From the NCBI RefSeq assembly GCF_000023225.1, contig NC_013173.1:374501-438500 (forward strand): a stretch of 64,000 bases of DNA. Direction: 5' to 3'. A program made the position numbers and the translations under genes. Positions 28,867-35,211 of this stretch are shown piece by piece. The DNA comes from Desulfomicrobium baculatum DSM 4028 (lineage in GTDB: Bacteria > Desulfobacterota > Desulfovibrionia > Desulfovibrionales > Desulfomicrobiaceae). The notes beneath the pieces are model-generated. The model ran no database searches. It saw only the letters and a program-made list of their open reading frames with translations, and was not told the origin of the DNA. Every line of letters begins with the position of its first letter. The first letter of the stretch is position 1.

Positions 28867-29686
28867 ACGCCGAAAATGTCCTTTCAAAGTCCGGTGCCGG
28901 GATGAGGCGGCCGCGTTCGGTGAGAATCAGGATCCTGTTCCCGGCTTCGTCATGCCGGACGCCGCCCCGGACCTGCCCCGGGTTGAAGGGGAGCCTGGCC
29001 AGGATGCGCCGCCATGGCGAGACCGGGTCGGCAAAGCGCGCCTCCGTGGATCCGCTTGAGGTGATGCCAAGCTCGCGGCCGTGACCACGCAGGACATTTT
29101 TTTCAAGCCACGCTTCAAGCTTTGTTTCGGCCAGGAGCACGCTGGCCGGTGCCAGACGTTCAAAGACAAGAGTTGTGTGGCCGAGGCTGAACTCCAGCTT
29201 GAATGCCCCCGGCCGAAATGAAGCCTTGCCCAGGACCGCATGTGGCGGAGTTTCAAAACGCAGGTCGTAGCAGCGCCAGCTTCGCCATGAGTCGGGGGGC
29301 ATCCAGTCCAGTGACGTTACGATCGTGCGGAGCAGCGTTGCCGGCGGCGGAGCGGAAAAGAGTGCGGCGAAAACCGCCTTTTTTTCCGTCGAACGGAGCA
29401 CGAAAAGCCTGGCTTCGGCTGATGGGGCGGCCCAGATGTCGTCTCCCAGCCTGCCGGTCCAGGGAGCGCGAAAGGGAACCAGTCTGGCACCGCCGATCCC
29501 CGAGGCCTTGAGCAGCCGCGGTCCGTCCTTGTCCGGAGTGAAGGGCGCCTTTTCCGGTCCGAAGCGCAGATCAAGGACCGGGAGGTCCGGTCCGGCAATC
29601 CTCACAAAACCCCGATCCAGGATCATCGGCTCCATGTTGGCCGGGATATCCACCCGCAGTCCATCCCAACCGAGCGATTCGGTCAT
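28841..29686 (-). CDS. Unknown protein, partner of the PqqD-like gene
   Basis: 281 residues, no signal peptide, mixed alpha/beta, no catalytic motif I recognise. Segments such as PANMEPMILDRGFVRIAGP and EFSLGHTTLVFERLAP suggest a beta-rich N-terminal and middle part. Tryptophan and proline content are high and only one cysteine is present. It overlaps its upstream neighbour by ATGA and the PqqD-like gene downstream, which implies a common function. Not recognised. Confidence 0.75.
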   Translation of the reverse strand: MTESLGWDGLRVDIPANMEPMILDRGFVRIAGPDLPVLDLRFGPEKAPFTPDKDGPRLLKASGIGGARLVPFRAPWTGRLGDDIWAAPSAEARLFVLRSTEKKAVFAALFSAPPPATLLRTIVTSLDWMPPDSWRSWRCYDLRFETPPHAVLGKASFRPGAFKLEFSLGHTTLVFERLAPASVLLAETKLEAWLEKNVLRGHGRELGITSSGSTEARFADPVSPWRRILARLPFNPGQVRGGVRHDEAGNRILILTERGRLIPAPDFERTFSAYATTAIQG

Positions 29687-30285
29687 TGCGGGACGAGCAG
29701 GCGGTAGTCGAGCTTGTTCGCGGGAGTCGGAGCGCGATCGTTTTGAGCTCCGGAATCATTCTTGGCGTCCTGACAGGCGTCTTCGCGCAGCCACAGGGAG
29801 CGCAGGGTGATCTTCACGAAATTGCCGGTCTTGTAGTCTTCGTCCCTGCTGTGGGTCAGTTCTAGATTGACCTGCTCGCCTTCGGGGTTGAGGAAGCTCC
29901 ATTTCCAGGACATGACCGTCTGAAAGGGATCGCCGCGCCATTCGAGAGGCTTGCCGAACCGCGCCCGGTAACGTTGCAGCAGTTCGTCGAAGAACTCTTT
30001 GGTATTGTTGTCGAATTTGAGCTTGATGCGCACGATCCGCCCGATCTGGTCGCAGTTGGCGTAGGCCACGGTGCCGCTTTTGATGCCGGGGGCGTGATGG
30101 GGGATGAGTTGGACCTCCAGCAGATGACGCTCCTGGGAGAGAGGAATTTCCGTGTGCATGCGGCATATGTTGTGGATGCTCGAAATGTCTTCGCCCAGGG
30201 TGATGCCTCCAAGGGAGGTCGGAAAAACTTGGGCCTGGACAGAGGAGGCCATGAAAAGCCAAAGAAGAAACATGCAGTATTTCAT
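29683..30285 (-). CDS. Exported protein of unknown function
   Basis: 200 residues with a classical signal peptide (MKYCMFLLWLFMASSVQA, cleaved before QVFP). The mature domain has GGITLGEDISSIHNIC and RYRARFGKPLEWRGDPFQ, which resembles small periplasmic proteins of the type seen next to envelope or maturation systems in Desulfovibrio. Cysteines at the start of the mature domain, in the middle and near the C-terminus could form a disulfide. First gene of the operon 30285-28519; a divergent 65-base gap separates it from the phosphatase gene. Confidence 0.78.
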   Translation of the reverse strand: MKYCMFLLWLFMASSVQAQVFPTSLGGITLGEDISSIHNICRMHTEIPLSQERHLLEVQLIPHHAPGIKSGTVAYANCDQIGRIVRIKLKFDNNTKEFFDELLQRYRARFGKPLEWRGDPFQTVMSWKWSFLNPEGEQVNLELTHSRDEDYKTGNFVKITLRSLWLREDACQDAKNDSGAQNDRAPTPANKLDYRLLVPQ

Positions 30286-30350
30286 CTGGACATACTATTC
30301 CACCCGCAAGCCGATTGTCCAGTTTTACCGCCACGCGCAAGGAGTCTGAA

Positions 30351-31898
30351 ATGACTCGAATCCTGCTTTACTATTTTTTCATGCTGGTGGTGCTGACCTT
30401 TTACGGGGGCGAGGTCTGACCTCTGATCGCCACGCTTCCGGTCTGGAAGTTTTTCTTGGTGCTCGGCGCACATCTGGTCGGGGCCCTTTTTTTGCGGCAC
30501 GTCCTTGTGCGCCTCTTCGTCCGCCCTTTGCCTGTCCAGCGTCAAGCCACGCGTCTGCTGTTCCTTGATTTCATCGTCTTTGTGGGCACGGGCCTCGGCG
30601 TTGGAGTGTATCACAATCTGGTTTGGGGCTTTCCGGTTTCAAGCGGTCTGGAGGTCGTCATCGGTTTTGCCACCATCGGCCTTTTTGCCGCCCTGGATCT
30701 GAGCCTCGAATGGGAATATCGGATCATCAAACAGGCGCATTTTCTGGAACAAAGCCTTCCGGACTCGAAGGCGTTCTTCCCGCAGACCCGCAGGTTTGCG
30801 CTGCTGGCTTCCGGGATCATCATCTTTGTGACCATTGTCCTGCTTCTGCTTCTGGTGCGCGACATCTCCTGGCTCAAGGCGCAGGATCAGGCCGCTGCCC
30901 TGGGTTTGTCCTTTCTGCTGCGGTCCGTGGTGCTGGAGGTTCTGTTTGTCATGGGCGTCCTCTTGGTGCTGACCATGCTGCTCGTTTTTTCCTACGCCAG
31001 AAACCTGGACATCCTCTTCGAGAATCAGACCAAGGTTCTGGAGCGGGTCAGTCAGGGGCGCCTGGACAGCAAGGTTCCGGTGGTCACCAATGACGAGTTC
31101 GCGGTCATCGCCGGGCACACCAACTTCATGATCGATCGCCTCGTGGAGCGAGAGCAGATGGCGCAGGGACTTGAATTGGCCAGGCAGATTCAGACCAGCC
31201 TGCTGCCGACGTTCACCCCCTTTCTGCCCGGGGCGCGGATTTTCGGGACCAGCCTTTTCTGCGACGAGACCGGGGGGGATTTTTACGACTACATGGTGCG
31301 CGACGGCGAACATGGCCCGCAGCTTGTGATCATGATCGGGGATGTCACCGGGCATGGAGTGGGATCGGCCCTGCTCATGGCTTCAGTCAGGGCGTACATG
31401 AAAGCTCATTTGTTGCAGACGAGCGATCTGGCCGAGGTCATGAACCGGACAAACACGCTCATTTCCAGGGATGTCGCAGGCAGCGGTCATTTCGTAACGG
31501 TCTTCCTGCTGTCTTTCTGCCCGATCGGCCGCAGGGTCGAGTGGGTGGGCGCGGGGCATGACCCGGCGATCTTTCAGCCTTTTGACGGCGGCGAAGTCCG
31601 CAGCCTTGCGGGTCGGGATATACCGCTCGGCGTGGACCCGACCTGGCGGTATGGGGTAACCGAGGACCGGCTTGGCGAGGGCGTCCTGCTGATGGGAACG
31701 GACGGAATCTGGGAGGCGGTCGACGCGCGGAAGACCATGTTCGGCAAGGAGCGCATGCTCAAAGTGCTGCGTGAAAACGTCATGGCTTCGCCGCAGGAGA
31801 TCGCGGAGCGGATCTTGACGGCGGTGGATTCGTTCACGGGCAATGCCCGTGTCGAGGATGACCGGACCGTCGTTATTGCCCGTTTGACGGAGAGTTGA
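30351..31898 (+). CDS. Membrane PP2C (RsbU-type) phosphatase with in-frame TGA at codon 23, candidate selenoprotein
   Basis: Reading from the ATG at 30351 (AAGGAG six bases upstream) gives MTRILLYYFFMLVVLTFYGG, EV, then an in-frame TGA (30417-30419), then PLIATLPVWKFF and 480 further residues: 515 amino acids if the TGA is read as selenocysteine. There are about six membrane helices (4-19, 30-50, 62-80, 83-105, 140-165, 175-200), a HAMP-like linker (about 206-260) and a SpoIIE/PP2C domain (DETGGDFYDY, GDVTGHGVGSALLMA, GAGHDPAIF, GTDGIWEA, DDRTVV) with all metal-binding Asp residues. It would dephosphorylate the STAS protein encoded opposite. Without readthrough the first usable start is a TTG at 30456 (GGAAG six bases upstream), which removes helix 1 and cuts into helix 2. 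The 3' end overlaps the STAS gene by 26 bases (convergent). Confidence 0.75.
30417..30449 (+). promoter_or_regulatory. Candidate bacterial SECIS element
   Basis: The TGA codon is followed by 20 bases and then a GGTCT loop (30440-30444) closed by a perfect 5-bp stem CTTCC/GGAAG (30435-30439 with 30445-30449), extendable by a G-T pair. Bacterial selenocysteine elements are known to need an upper stem of at least 4 bp, a G among the first two loop bases and a loop 16-37 bases after the UGA; all three hold. The GGUCU loop is the SelB-contacting sequence of E. coli fdhF. Confidence 0.6.
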
Positions 31899-32226
31899 TG
31901 GACTCCAGCGCCTGCGCCGCATCGTGGCACATGATGAAAATGCGGTTGTAGCCGGAGATTTCAAAAATTTCGGCAATGTAGTCCCGGACTCCGCAGACCA
32001 TGACCTGGCCGCCTCGGGAGTGCAGGCGCTGGTAGCTCATGACCAGGATGCGCAGTCCGGCGCTGTTGATGTATTCGAGTTCCGAAAAATCCATGATCAG
32101 GTGCGTAACCCCTCGATCCAGTCTGAGCAGGACCTTTTGCTCCAGTTCTGTGGTGGAGGTGGCATCGAGACGTCCCTTGATGCGGAAAACGGTGGCCGTG
32201 GGGTGGTCTATTTCCTGGAGTTGCAT
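31873..32226 (-). CDS. STAS-domain anti-sigma factor antagonist (RsbV/SpoIIAA type)
   Basis: 117 residues. STAS fold with the phospho-acceptor Ser in the conserved segment DFSELEYINSAGLRIL (Ser at about 57). Start at 32226 (MQLQEIDHP) lies inside the upstream gene (19-base overlap); the longer frame adds Arg-rich sequence not seen in STAS proteins. In partner switching the unphosphorylated form binds the RsbW-type kinase and releases its target. Its likely phosphatase is encoded convergently. Confidence 0.92.
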   Translation of the reverse strand: MQLQEIDHPTATVFRIKGRLDATSTTELEQKVLLRLDRGVTHLIMDFSELEYINSAGLRILVMSYQRLHSRGGQVMVCGVRDYIAEIFEISGYNRIFIMCHDAAQALESINSPSNGQ

Positions 32227-32651
32227 TCCGGCTCCTGTGAGGCTTTGGCGAGGGTGATGCGGAGATGGTTGGACGACTGTCCGCGTGTGTAGACAAAGTC
32301 GGCAGCCAGATTGCGCACCAGGCACAGGCCCATTCCGCCGATGGCGGCGGGTCCTTTTTCGGGGCATCTGGAGATTGGATGCGTGCTTGGATCGAACCGT
32401 GGCCCGGTATCGATGATCTCGATCACGACTTTGTCTTCAAGGTCGGTGATGAAGACCCGGATGGTCGTATCCAGACCTGGAACGGTGCCGTGGGCTATGC
32501 AGTTGGAGATCAGTTCGTCCACCACCAGCCCCAGCCGGTAGCGCAGCGGCGGCAACAGCTTTCTCTTCTCGCCGAATCGTTCGAGGGCGGCAAGCAGCGC
32601 AGCCTGCTCTTCGGCCGGACGGGCTAGGGTAAAATCGAATGAAGCTGTCAT
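32208..32651 (-). CDS. RsbW/SpoIIAB-type serine kinase, anti-sigma ATPase
   Basis: 147 residues, GHKL ATPase: N box VVDELISNCIAHG, G1 box IIDTGPRFDP, G2 box GGMGLCLVRNLAADF. Start at 32651 is preceded by AAAAGGA; other Met codons lie at 32672 and 32696. The kinase would phosphorylate the STAS protein downstream and hold some output, usually a sigma factor; no sigma gene is present here, so the target may be the neighbouring transporter or elsewhere. Confidence 0.92.
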   Translation of the reverse strand: MTASFDFTLARPAEEQAALLAALERFGEKRKLLPPLRYRLGLVVDELISNCIAHGTVPGLDTTIRVFITDLEDKVVIEIIDTGPRFDPSTHPISRCPEKGPAAIGGMGLCLVRNLAADFVYTRGQSSNHLRITLAKASQEPECNSRK

Positions 32652-32724
32652 GGCGTCCTTTTCTCTTTTCATAGAGTAGGGTAGGCGGGAGGTCAAACTG
32701 CGACAGGTGGGAAAGGATCAGTTC

Positions 32725-35211
32725 ATGGTGACCAGGCGGACCCTCTATTCATGGGTTTTGAAAAAAAACGTGCGCTGGCAGCTCCTTCTCGTGCTGCTGG
32801 TCGTGGTCACCGTGGGCATCCGCGTCGCTCCGCTGGAGTTGCAGAAGCGCATCGTCAACCAGGCCATCGGCCTCGGCGACATGGATCTGCTGGTTTTCTA
32901 CTGCCTGCTCTTTCTCGCTTCCGTGCTTACGGCCAGCACCCTCAAGTTCTGCATCAACCTTCTCCAGGCCTACATCGGGCAGCGCACCCTCAAGCGCATG
33001 CGCACCAGTCTTTACGAGCACATCCTGAGCCTTCCGCTGTCCTTTTTTCGTACCATCCAGCCCGGCCAGGTCATCAACTCCCTCATCAATGAGCTGGCGT
33101 CCATTTCGGGCTTCGTCGGCAGCGCGGTGTCCGTCCCGCTCATCAACGTCTGTACTCTTTTGGCCATGGGCGGATACCTCTTCTACCTCAATCCCCTTCT
33201 GGCGGGCCTGAGTTTCGTCATCTACCCTTTGCAGATCGTCGTCGTGCCGCGTCTCCAGAAGCGCGCCAACGAGGCCAACCGGCATCGGGTCAATGTCAGC
33301 CGCGCCATCTCCGGCAGCATCGGCGAGGTCATCACCGGTGTGCACGAGGTGCACGGGCACGCCGGTTTCGGCCTGGAAAACGAGAAGTTCTCCGGCCAGG
33401 CCGGGCAATTGCTGCAGGCCAACGTGCGCATGAACGCCTACCGCTACGGCATCAAGTTTGCCAACAACTTCTTCGAGCACCTTGGCCCCTTCATTCTCTT
33501 CCTGGTCGGCGGCAGCATGACCATTCGCGGCCTCTTCGACCTCGGCGCCCTGGTGGCCTTTCTGTCGGCCTATTCGAGCCTGAGCGAACCCTGGCGGGAG
33601 ATGATGGATTTCTACCAGCTCAAGGAGGACAGCCAGGTCCGCTACAAAAACGTCATGGCGGCCTTCGATCTGGCCCCGGAGCATCGCCTCGTACCCGTGG
33701 ACCGTGACCTCTACCGCTTTCGCGGAGAAATCGAGCTGCGGAACGTGTCTTTCCGCACCCCCGAAGGCGCGAGGCTGATCGAGGACATTAACCTGCACGT
33801 CAGGCCGGGGGAAATGGTCGCCCTGGTCGGCTATTCGGGCAGCGGCAAATCGACTCTGGCCAAGGTCGTGGCCCAGCTCATGCCGTACACCGAGGGGCAG
33901 GCGCAGCTCGACGGTCACGATATCCGCGACCTGACCAAGCTCGACGTGGCCGAGAACCTGGGCATGGTTCCCCAGCACCCCTTCATCTTCAGCGGCACGG
34001 TCCACGACAATCTCTTGTATGCGAGCCATTCCAGCGTAATGAACCGCGTCCCGGGCTTCACGCCGCCTGACCTGGACCGCGTCATTGAGGTCGTGCAGCA
34101 GGTGGGGCTTTTCGCGGACATCCTCAAGTTCGGAAGCCAGGCCGTGATCTCGCCCGCCGAAAGGCCGGAACTGGCCGAACGCTTCCTGGCCATGCGTCGC
34201 CTGTTCCGTGAGCGTTTCGAGGCCGGCTTCGAGGGCGACATCGAGTTTTTCGATCCCAAACGTTACCTGGATTTCGGATCCATTGCCCAGAACATCGTCT
34301 TCGGGGATTTCACGGACCGCCTGGCCAGATTCGAGGATGCCTTTCGCAACAAGCGCTTTCTGGCCTTTCTGAACCAAACGGGCCTGGACCGGATCCTGGT
34401 CGATTTCGGGGCGGTTGTCGCCGCCGCCACGATTCCCATCCTGCGCTATGCGGCGCAGACGCCGGAACTCTACGCCGATAGCCCCATCGCCCGAGAGGAC
34501 ATGGATGCGTACACGCAGGTCGTGGCCGAAATGACAACCCGCAGTGAGACGGAATTTAAAGCCGCGTCCCGGAGCCTGCTTCTGCGCCTGGCCCTGAAAT
34601 TCGTCCCCGGCCGTCACAAGACCGTGCGCATGCCGGAGCAGCTCAAGGAGAGAATCCTTTTGGCCCGGGCGGAATTTCCCGAGCATCTTGCGCGTTCGGG
34701 GCCGTCGACGCTGCAGTTCTACAAAGAAGACCGCTACATCGAGTCGCGCAGCATCCGCGACAACATCCTTTTCGGTCAGCCCCGGCCGGGCCGCGGCGGA
34801 GCGCTGGAGCGCATCAGCCAGCAGTTGATTCAACTGCTCATCGAGGAGGGGGTGCTGGAGAGCATCGTCGAGCTTGGCCTTGGCTTCCAGGTCGGGAGCA
34901 TGGGCGAGTATCTCTCGGGCGGCCAGCGTCAGAAGATCGCCCTGGCCCGTGTCTTTCTCAAGCAGCCCGCCATATATGTCCTCGACGAAGCCACGTCCGC
35001 CCTGGACAACGCCTCCCAGGCCCGGGTCCAGAATTTCCTGAGGACCGTGCGCGGCAAGCACACGGTCATCTCCGTGGTCCATCGACTGGACACGGTGTCA
35101 CACTACGACCGCATCGTGGTCATGAAAGCCGGTAAGATCGTGGAGAGCGGTCCGTACGACGAACTCATGGCCGCCAAGGGGGTGCTCCATGATCTCGTCG
35201 GAACAGTCTGA
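32725..35211 (+). CDS. ABC exporter with permease domain and abnormally long ATPase insertion
   Basis: 828 residues. ABC_membrane domain (about 1-310, six helices), then an ATPase domain with Walker A GYSGSGKST at about 369, Q-loop MVPQHPF at about 415, the signature LSGGQRQ at about 731, Walker B IYVLDEATSALD at about 750 and the H-loop VHR at about 786. In normal exporters Q-loop and signature are some 60-70 residues apart; here about 315, so about 250 extra residues lie between. The insertion contains two further copies of the post-Q-loop element (SIAQNIVFG and SIRDNILFG, after SGTVHDNLLYAS), as if parts of the domain were repeated. Start at 32725 follows AAAGGA. The cNBD gene overlaps its end. 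Confidence 0.88.
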   Translation: MVTRRTLYSWVLKKNVRWQLLLVLLVVVTVGIRVAPLELQKRIVNQAIGLGDMDLLVFYCLLFLASVLTASTLKFCINLLQAYIGQRTLKRMRTSLYEHILSLPLSFFRTIQPGQVINSLINELASISGFVGSAVSVPLINVCTLLAMGGYLFYLNPLLAGLSFVIYPLQIVVVPRLQKRANEANRHRVNVSRAISGSIGEVITGVHEVHGHAGFGLENEKFSGQAGQLLQANVRMNAYRYGIKFANNFFEHLGPFILFLVGGSMTIRGLFDLGALVAFLSAYSSLSEPWREMMDFYQLKEDSQVRYKNVMAAFDLAPEHRLVPVDRDLYRFRGEIELRNVSFRTPEGARLIEDINLHVRPGEMVALVGYSGSGKSTLAKVVAQLMPYTEGQAQLDGHDIRDLTKLDVAENLGMVPQHPFIFSGTVHDNLLYASHSSVMNRVPGFTPPDLDRVIEVVQQVGLFADILKFGSQAVISPAERPELAERFLAMRRLFRERFEAGFEGDIEFFDPKRYLDFGSIAQNIVFGDFTDRLARFEDAFRNKRFLAFLNQTGLDRILVDFGAVVAAATIPILRYAAQTPELYADSPIAREDMDAYTQVVAEMTTRSETEFKAASRSLLLRLALKFVPGRHKTVRMPEQLKERILLARAEFPEHLARSGPSTLQFYKEDRYIESRSIRDNILFGQPRPGRGGALERISQQLIQLLIEEGVLESIVELGLGFQVGSMGEYLSGGQRQKIALARVFLKQPAIYVLDEATSALDNASQARVQNFLRTVRGKHTVISVVHRLDTVSHYDRIVVMKAGKIVESGPYDELMAAKGVLHDLVGTV

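Follow-up and report, generated by a model that had tools for sequence, protein, structure and literature searches.

Does the in-frame TGA at positions 30417 to 30419 of a 64,000-nucleotide stretch of Desulfomicrobium baculatum DSM 4028 DNA (the window) encode selenocysteine (Sec) in a membrane-bound signaling phosphatase, and, if so, what might that residue do there? The host genome is a single contig of 3,942,657 bases. The first-pass annotation had described an AAGGAG sequence, an ATG at 30351, 22 codons rich in hydrophobic residues, the TGA, and then a phosphatase in the same frame; all of these elements were found on re-reading, and the frame stays open behind the TGA up to the terminal TGA stop at 31896 to 31898. 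The locus contains the following features.

30339 to 30344, forward strand: ribosome-binding site AAGGAG, read directly; the spacer to the ATG is 6 bases
30351 to 31898, forward strand: predicted selenoprotein gene, MASE10–HAMP-like–SpoIIE/PP2C phosphatase, 515 residues with Sec at residue 23
30372 to 30947, forward strand: MASE10 membrane sensor domain (PF20970), residues 8 to 199 (Pfam, 1.2e-34), six long helices predicted in the region
30417 to 30419, forward strand: TGA read as Sec23, where helix 1 ends in the predicted models; TGA/Cys/Ser, 51/35/3 in 89 genes
30434 to 30450, forward strand: SECIS-like hairpin G-CTTCC-GGTCT-GGAAG-T, with 5 Watson-Crick pairs and an outer G-U pair
31320 to 31886, forward strand: SpoIIE/PP2C phosphatase match (PF07228), residues 324 to 512 (Pfam, 2e-41)
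31873 to 32226, reverse strand: convergent gene for a STAS-domain protein of the anti-anti-sigma type (Pfam STAS, 9.7e-19), the likely substrate
32208 to 32696, reverse strand: gene for a HATPase_c_2 protein, an RsbW/SpoIIAB-like kinase (Pfam, 1.7e-20), overlapping the STAS gene

With the TGA read as Sec, the MASE10 match scored 120.3 bits (gathering cut-off, 27) and the SpoIIE match 142.5 bits (cut-off, 25); a HAMP match of 17.1 bits stayed under its cut-off of 25. The translation contains the motifs GGDFYD (just ahead of the SpoIIE match), GDVTGHG, TDGIWE, and DDRT, which we take to be the metal-ligand motifs of PP2C phosphatases. The protein had at first been called an RsbU-type phosphatase, a loose term: its output is a PP2C phosphatase of SpoIIE type, but its N terminus is MASE10, and Pfam found no RsbU_N domain up to an E value of 0.1. 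Pfam likewise returned no PAS or peroxiredoxin domain for the window protein, and none of the NCBIfam selenoprotein models matched it.

When the window protein and 53 others of the 89 collected genes were scanned with Pfam, all 54 matched MASE10, 37 matched SpoIIE, 25 HAMP, 10 guanylate/adenylate cyclase, 7 HD_5, and 7 HD. Comparison with reference outputs from three members of the family assigned a PP2C output to 48 of the 51 genes with a TGA at the site; L040 and L093 are truncated, either where a contig ends or by a premature stop, and the output of L131 is nearest to a cyclase. All four PP2C motifs were found in their strict form in 28 of these 48 phosphatases, the strict second motif being missing in 17 and the strict first motif in 3; inspection by eye of L015, L106, and L115 showed variant motifs in which the Asp residues are kept.

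Decoding of the TGA in relatives

Replacement of the TGA by Cys in homologs had been set beforehand as a test of selenocysteine coding. MASE10 genes were gathered from 61 genomes (the organism's own and relatives), from 297 genomes of the class (74 with a match), and from 395 genomes of the phylum (10 with a match), leaving aside copies with identical DNA around the site, a second L117 segment with a gap at the site column, and a short match of 30 bits (G071:C79). In the resulting 89 distinct genes, this one column held TGA in 51, Cys in 35, and Ser in 3 (L042, L109, and L132), and TAA, TAG, or Trp in none; the TGA genes come from six family codes within a single phylum. A TAA or TAG codon at the site would have appeared as a gap row, and the sole gap row was the second L117 segment; in addition, no in-frame stop other than TGA was found among the MASE10 matches listed for the class and phylum genomes. 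A locus search with a narrower alignment yielded 8 further loci, of which six have TGA and two have Cys in this position; they were kept out of the 89, as several belong to genomes already represented there. L139, one of the two Cys loci, is labeled as coming from a gammaproteobacterial metagenome bin.

The distribution of the TGA was mapped on a quick maximum-likelihood tree of the MASE10 domain, built with the Sec/Cys site masked. The TGA label required 11 changes on this tree, at least 7 of them forced by well-supported branches, versus 28.9 changes on average for shuffled labels on the same tree, and Sec and Cys have therefore been exchanged repeatedly.

A genome check for selA, selB, selC, and selD, also proposed in the first-pass annotation, found all four over the family cut-offs (tRNA-Sec, 86 bits; SelB, 362 bits; SelA, 625 bits; SelD, 324 bits), which, together with the exchange of TGA and Cys in homologs, supports the claim that the TGA encodes Sec. 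Among 14 well-known genomes used as controls, over-cut-off matches numbered 5 for tRNA-Sec, 1 for SelA, 2 for SelB, and 2 for SelD; selB matches under the cut-off were uninformative, as at an E value of ≤0.001 they were found in all 14. An over-cut-off selB was present in 80 of the 83 MASE10 genomes tested, and the remaining three (G003, G094, and G277) are drafts of 470 to 510 contigs with tRNA-Sec matches of 77 to 86 bits, two of which, G003 and G094, bear a TGA gene. Since selB is also common in the group at large (over the cut-off in 251 of the 297 class genomes and 350 of the 395 phylum genomes), its presence says little, and we regarded it as support and rejected it as proof. Its frequency in MASE10 carriers was 71 of 74, compared to 180 of 223 in other genomes (Fisher P = 0.0013, a value that ignores kinship and assumes the same set of 297 genomes). 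The SelD match of the host genome (G000:C1:3136326-3137243; L144) contains one in-frame TGA, in keeping with the Sec-containing form in which SelD is known to occur.

Among the alternatives, the one that survives best concedes Sec and concerns its role, and it is weighed with the sensor below; three others dispute the recoding itself. According to the first of these, the TGA is an ordinary stop that ends a 22-codon leader or short peptide, and translation of the phosphatase begins farther downstream, perhaps at the TTG at 30456, from which an ORF of 480 codons does indeed run. This is very improbable in view of the mix of TGA, Cys, and Ser codons, and no TAA or TAG, in the 89 genes, and a start at 30456 would delete helix 1 together with the most conserved motif of the domain. 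The codons ahead of the TGA also speak against it: across 15 pairs among six genus members, pairs that are not independent of each other, pN/pS was 0.29 in frame, compared to 1.23 and 1.08 in the two alternative frames. Judged by this codon comparison, the 22 codons 5′ of the TGA evolve as coding sequence under purifying selection.

SECIS-type hairpins behind the site

The hairpin of the window gene had been placed 20 bases after the TGA, which is correct for its loop; the stem begins already at 15. Its GGTCT loop had further been described as identical to the apical loop of the SECIS element of Escherichia coli fdhF. The sequence is indeed the same, lying at +19 to +23 after the TGA in fdhF, but "identical apical loop" is slightly too strong because the predicted fdhF fold has a 4-base loop, GGUC, closed by an A-U pair. 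The window holds 1,987 TGA triplets on its two strands (1,068 plus 919), of which 163 precede a hairpin of at least 5 bp at 16 to 37 bases with a G in the first two loop bases, and only that at 30417 to 30419 is followed by a GGTCT pentaloop. As a SECIS-type hairpin thus arises by chance behind about 8% of TGAs, tests on a single sequence are weak; for the window gene alone, neither the synonymous-shuffle test (P = 0.071) nor the folding energy (P = 0.09) reached significance. The hairpin of the window gene taken alone is suggestive only, and its folding energy was rejected as proof of a SECIS element.

The single-sequence tests being weak, the strong evidence comes from the relatives. A fixed search rule found a hairpin with a G in the first two loop bases in 50 of 51 TGA genes (58% expected from synonymous shuffles), compared to 15 of 35 Cys genes (47% expected), and the shuffle P value was ≤0.05 in 31 of the TGA genes and in 1 of the Cys genes. 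GGTCT at +21 to +25 occurred in 28 of 51 TGA genes and in 0 of 35 Cys genes, and the core of a second design, CCCCCCGTG, in 16 of 51 and 0 of 35, respectively. Mean folding-energy z scores were −1.31 for TGA genes and −0.27 for Cys genes (Mann-Whitney P = 9e-5).

The hairpins were divided into two types, a split drawn up after inspection of the sequences, unlike the counts of 50/51 and 15/35, which come from the fixed rule. Type A (33 TGA genes) most commonly has the form G-CTNCC-GGTCT-GGNAG and spans +15 to +31, and its five pairs are kept in all 33 genes. Type B (17 TGA genes) has the form G-CCCCC-CGTG(5 bases)-GGGGG-C, with six pairs, from +18/+38 to +23/+33, that are likewise kept in all 17. 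The type A pair +18/+28 varies in composition (C-G in 22 genes, T-A in 8, T-G in 2, and G-C in 1) and forms a pair in every one, even though it joins a silent position of a Leu codon to the opening base of a codon for Glu, Lys, Arg, or Gln; among the 35 Cys genes, these two positions are paired in 21. Type B shows one compensatory exchange of C-G to T-A. By its position and loop, the hairpin after the site fits the bacterial SECIS criterion in 50 of the 51 TGA genes.

Two Cys genes that adjoin TGA genes on the tree, L058 and L068, keep SECIS-like hairpins with the loops GGCCT and GGTCC, the latter of which also occurs in the TGA gene L085. SECIS remnants in Cys genes descended from Sec genes have been described earlier, according to the accessible part of that report (PMC1794560), and the hairpins of L058 and L068 are likely such remnants of a change from Sec to Cys. 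The one TGA gene without a hairpin under the fixed rule, L131 (G406:C41), fits neither type A nor type B; it combines a TGA at the MASE10 site with a cyclase-like output, and its nearest rows on the tree carry Cys (L133) and Ser (L132).

A second reading that disputes the recoding would have a general suppressor or near-cognate tRNA decode the TGA as Trp or Cys without selenium; near-cognate tRNAs are generally known to read through TGA. We consider it still less probable than an ordinary stop: Trp does not occur at the site in the 89 genes, the Sec machinery is present in the genome, and the SECIS-type hairpins, in two designs, track TGA and not Cys. Least credible of all is a sequencing error or decaying pseudogene, for although TGC and TGT each differ from TGA by a single base, 51 genes, drawn from many assemblies, share a TGA at this position, and the frame is open and under selection. 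With these three readings rejected on the evidence of the relatives, the TGA at 30417 to 30419 is almost certainly a Sec codon, and the gene very probably encodes a MASE10-phosphatase that acts in signaling and into which Sec is inserted by recoding.

The Sec23 site, its possible role, and known selenoproteins

In two AlphaFold2 models (computed from nine-row alignments; mean pLDDT, 83 and 84), helix 1 comprises residues 2 to 22, a loop follows at 23 to 30, and the next helix begins at 31, and the earlier placement of the site between helices 1 and 2 is borne out in these predictions. The pLDDT at residues 21 to 30, near the site, is 70 to 72, the weakest part of the helix 1-2 region. Lys and Arg are absent from loops 1 and 3 (stretches 23 to 30 and 90 to 98), four are found around each of loops 2 and 4, and two lie around loop 5, also presumed outside. 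By the positive-inside rule, the N terminus and phosphatase would lie inside and Sec23 outside, and we presume from the models that Sec23 sits on the periplasmic side at the end of helix 1. A Foldseek search of "pdb" with the sensor fold gave no match at an E value of ≤0.001. A SemiSWEET match at an E value of 0.42, from a profile search of PDB sequences, was taken as chance.

The site lies in the motif YGG-x-V-U-P. Sec or Cys occupies position 23 in 86 of the 89 genes, a degree of conservation shared with Y18 (87 genes), P24 (88), R49 (86), G99 (85), L119 (85), and D171 (80). Among the 89, a level of 80% is attained by no further Cys column. In this alignment, position 23 is the only near-invariant thiol/selenol position of the MASE10 domain. 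At least one further Cys is present in the sensor stretch of 30 of the 51 TGA genes, at unconserved positions (the window protein has none), and Ser stands at the site in 3 of 89 genes, so that a single selenol may not be the whole story everywhere.

The recoding, the SECIS element, the domain make-up, and the gene neighbors rest on comparison with relatives. From these elements, we propose that SelB and Sec-tRNA, guided by the hairpin 15 bases past the TGA, would insert Sec at residue 23 of a 515-residue inner-membrane protein, predicted to carry a MASE10 sensor of six helices that a HAMP-like linker connects to a SpoIIE/PP2C serine phosphatase in the cytoplasm. Oxidation of the Sec23 selenol, or formation of an adduct with it, would alter the packing of helix 1, possibly by way of a bond to a partner subunit, and the HAMP-like linker would relay the signal to the phosphatase. 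Because of the chemistry and position of Sec23, we moderately favor a mechanism in which this residue senses redox state or electrophiles at the periplasmic face; a Sec23 bond between subunits is a doubtful refinement of it. For MASE10 as a whole, the chances seem to us evenly balanced that it acts in the cell envelope as a dedicated redox sensor based on selenium or thiol, its one Sec or Cys at the outer end of helix 1 reading the periplasmic redox state and driving a partner switch; on this reading, MASE10 would drive cyclases in other members, including the TGA-bearing, cyclase-like L131.

The main rival to redox sensing is that Sec23 is a ligand of a metal, heme, or other cofactor, the phosphatase reporting ligand occupancy, or that it is catalytic, for example, in a membrane peroxidase or persulfide step. 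The strong conservation of Sec or Cys at 23 together with P24, R49, G99, and D171 would suit a binding site equally well. However, the alignment offers no conserved partner for a metal or heme site, since His, Met, and a second Cys all stay below 80% in every column, and the 54 scanned members have no further Pfam enzyme domain beyond their output domains, and we regard this rival as unlikely, though with a real share of the probability. If Sec23 is instead the sensing residue, as we prefer, selenium would be used in signal reception, and Sec would serve as the sensing residue of a transmembrane receptor family rather than in an enzyme active site; repeated exchange of Sec and Cys would then tune the sensitivity of the sensor. 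The natural series of Sec, Cys, and Ser forms offers a ready test of what selenium contributes. With a presumed Sec at the outer end of its first membrane helix, in a family in which Sec and Cys replace each other at that one position, the window protein is a promising candidate for redox sensing by selenium.

Most characterized selenoproteins bear a redox motif on a thioredoxin-like fold, and most uncharacterized ones are expected to serve redox functions, according to a 2026 review whose Table 1 holds 119 bacterial selenoprotein families and subfamilies (PMC13188914). The window gene has in common with these families an in-frame UGA, a downstream SECIS element, and Cys homologs; the words MASE10, SpoIIE, PP2C, HAMP, GGDEF, phosphatase, and sensor are absent from the review. 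Here, Sec would stand in a membrane sensor that controls a signaling phosphatase, without a second conserved thiol. No phosphatase or sensor appears in the accessible part of a 2022 selenoprotein review, and no phosphatase or SpoIIE in that of the deep-Sep paper; among the papers searched, the name MASE10 was met only inside locus tags of the form MASE_10.... To the first-pass annotation, no selenoprotein phosphatase of this type was known. A peroxiredoxin-PP2C fusion is in print, listed among selenoprotein domain fusions from the Global Ocean Sampling metagenomes in the accessible text of PMC2398784, yet it is a different protein: it, too, joins a selenoprotein family to a PP2C_SIG-type phosphatase, but that family is peroxiredoxin, whereas the window protein has a membrane sensor and no peroxiredoxin match. 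A selenoprotein histidine kinase of marine Deltaproteobacteria, given in one line of a prediction list (PMC8318568, accessible part), is similar in being a predicted selenoprotein of signal transduction, a comparison made by description and not by sequence. Judged by the openly readable papers searched, the genes analyzed here form a new selenoprotein family in a signaling role, defined by the MASE10 sensor. Gene callers probably cut MASE10 selenoproteins at the sensing residue, and the key site is probably missing from many database entries.

Neighboring genes and the putative partner switch

The window protein resembles the SpoIIE/RsbU/RsbP PP2C phosphatases of partner switches in its SpoIIE domain, in the family motifs, and in the adjacent genes for STAS and HATPase_c_2 proteins, and it differs from them in its sensor, a membrane domain whose coding sequence includes a Sec codon. 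In the flanking DNA, a STAS gene again adjoins MASE10 genes in three family codes, namely, in the same genus, in f4/g7 (L015 to L017), and in several members of f5 (L064, L068, L072, L082, L085, and L103). The HATPase_c_2 neighbor was found in same-genus relatives, and the HATPase_c_2 family occurs near STAS in L150, L152, and L160. As the STAS neighbor recurs in part of the family, it is likely the partner-switch target of the window phosphatase, and we consider it probable, from this gene order, that the STAS protein is its substrate here. The phosphatase would dephosphorylate the neighboring STAS protein, which would then capture the HATPase_c_2 kinase/anti-sigma protein and thereby release the target of the latter.

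Seventeen larger loci (15 TGA and 2 Cys) were surveyed with mechanical gene picks. The first downstream gene encodes a STAS protein in only 4 of them (L148, L150, L152, and L160) and is another or an unmatched gene in the remaining 13, and the target gene is therefore not always next door. A second SpoIIE phosphatase, convergent to the MASE10 phosphatase, stands beside HATPase_c_2 and STAS in L148, L150, and L152, and in L148 it is fused to HATPase_c_2. This second phosphatase has PDC/Cache-like sensor matches, over the cut-off only in L150, so that two phosphatases with different sensors may feed one switch.

Two further genes flank the locus. Directly upstream, on the reverse strand, lies a divergent gene (29683 to 30285) for a protein of 200 residues whose N terminus is signal-like and for which Pfam gave no match. 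On the forward strand, positions 32707 to 35211 encode an ABC exporter of 834 residues, in which Pfam matches the ATPase domain in two stretches, suggesting a long insert inside this domain.
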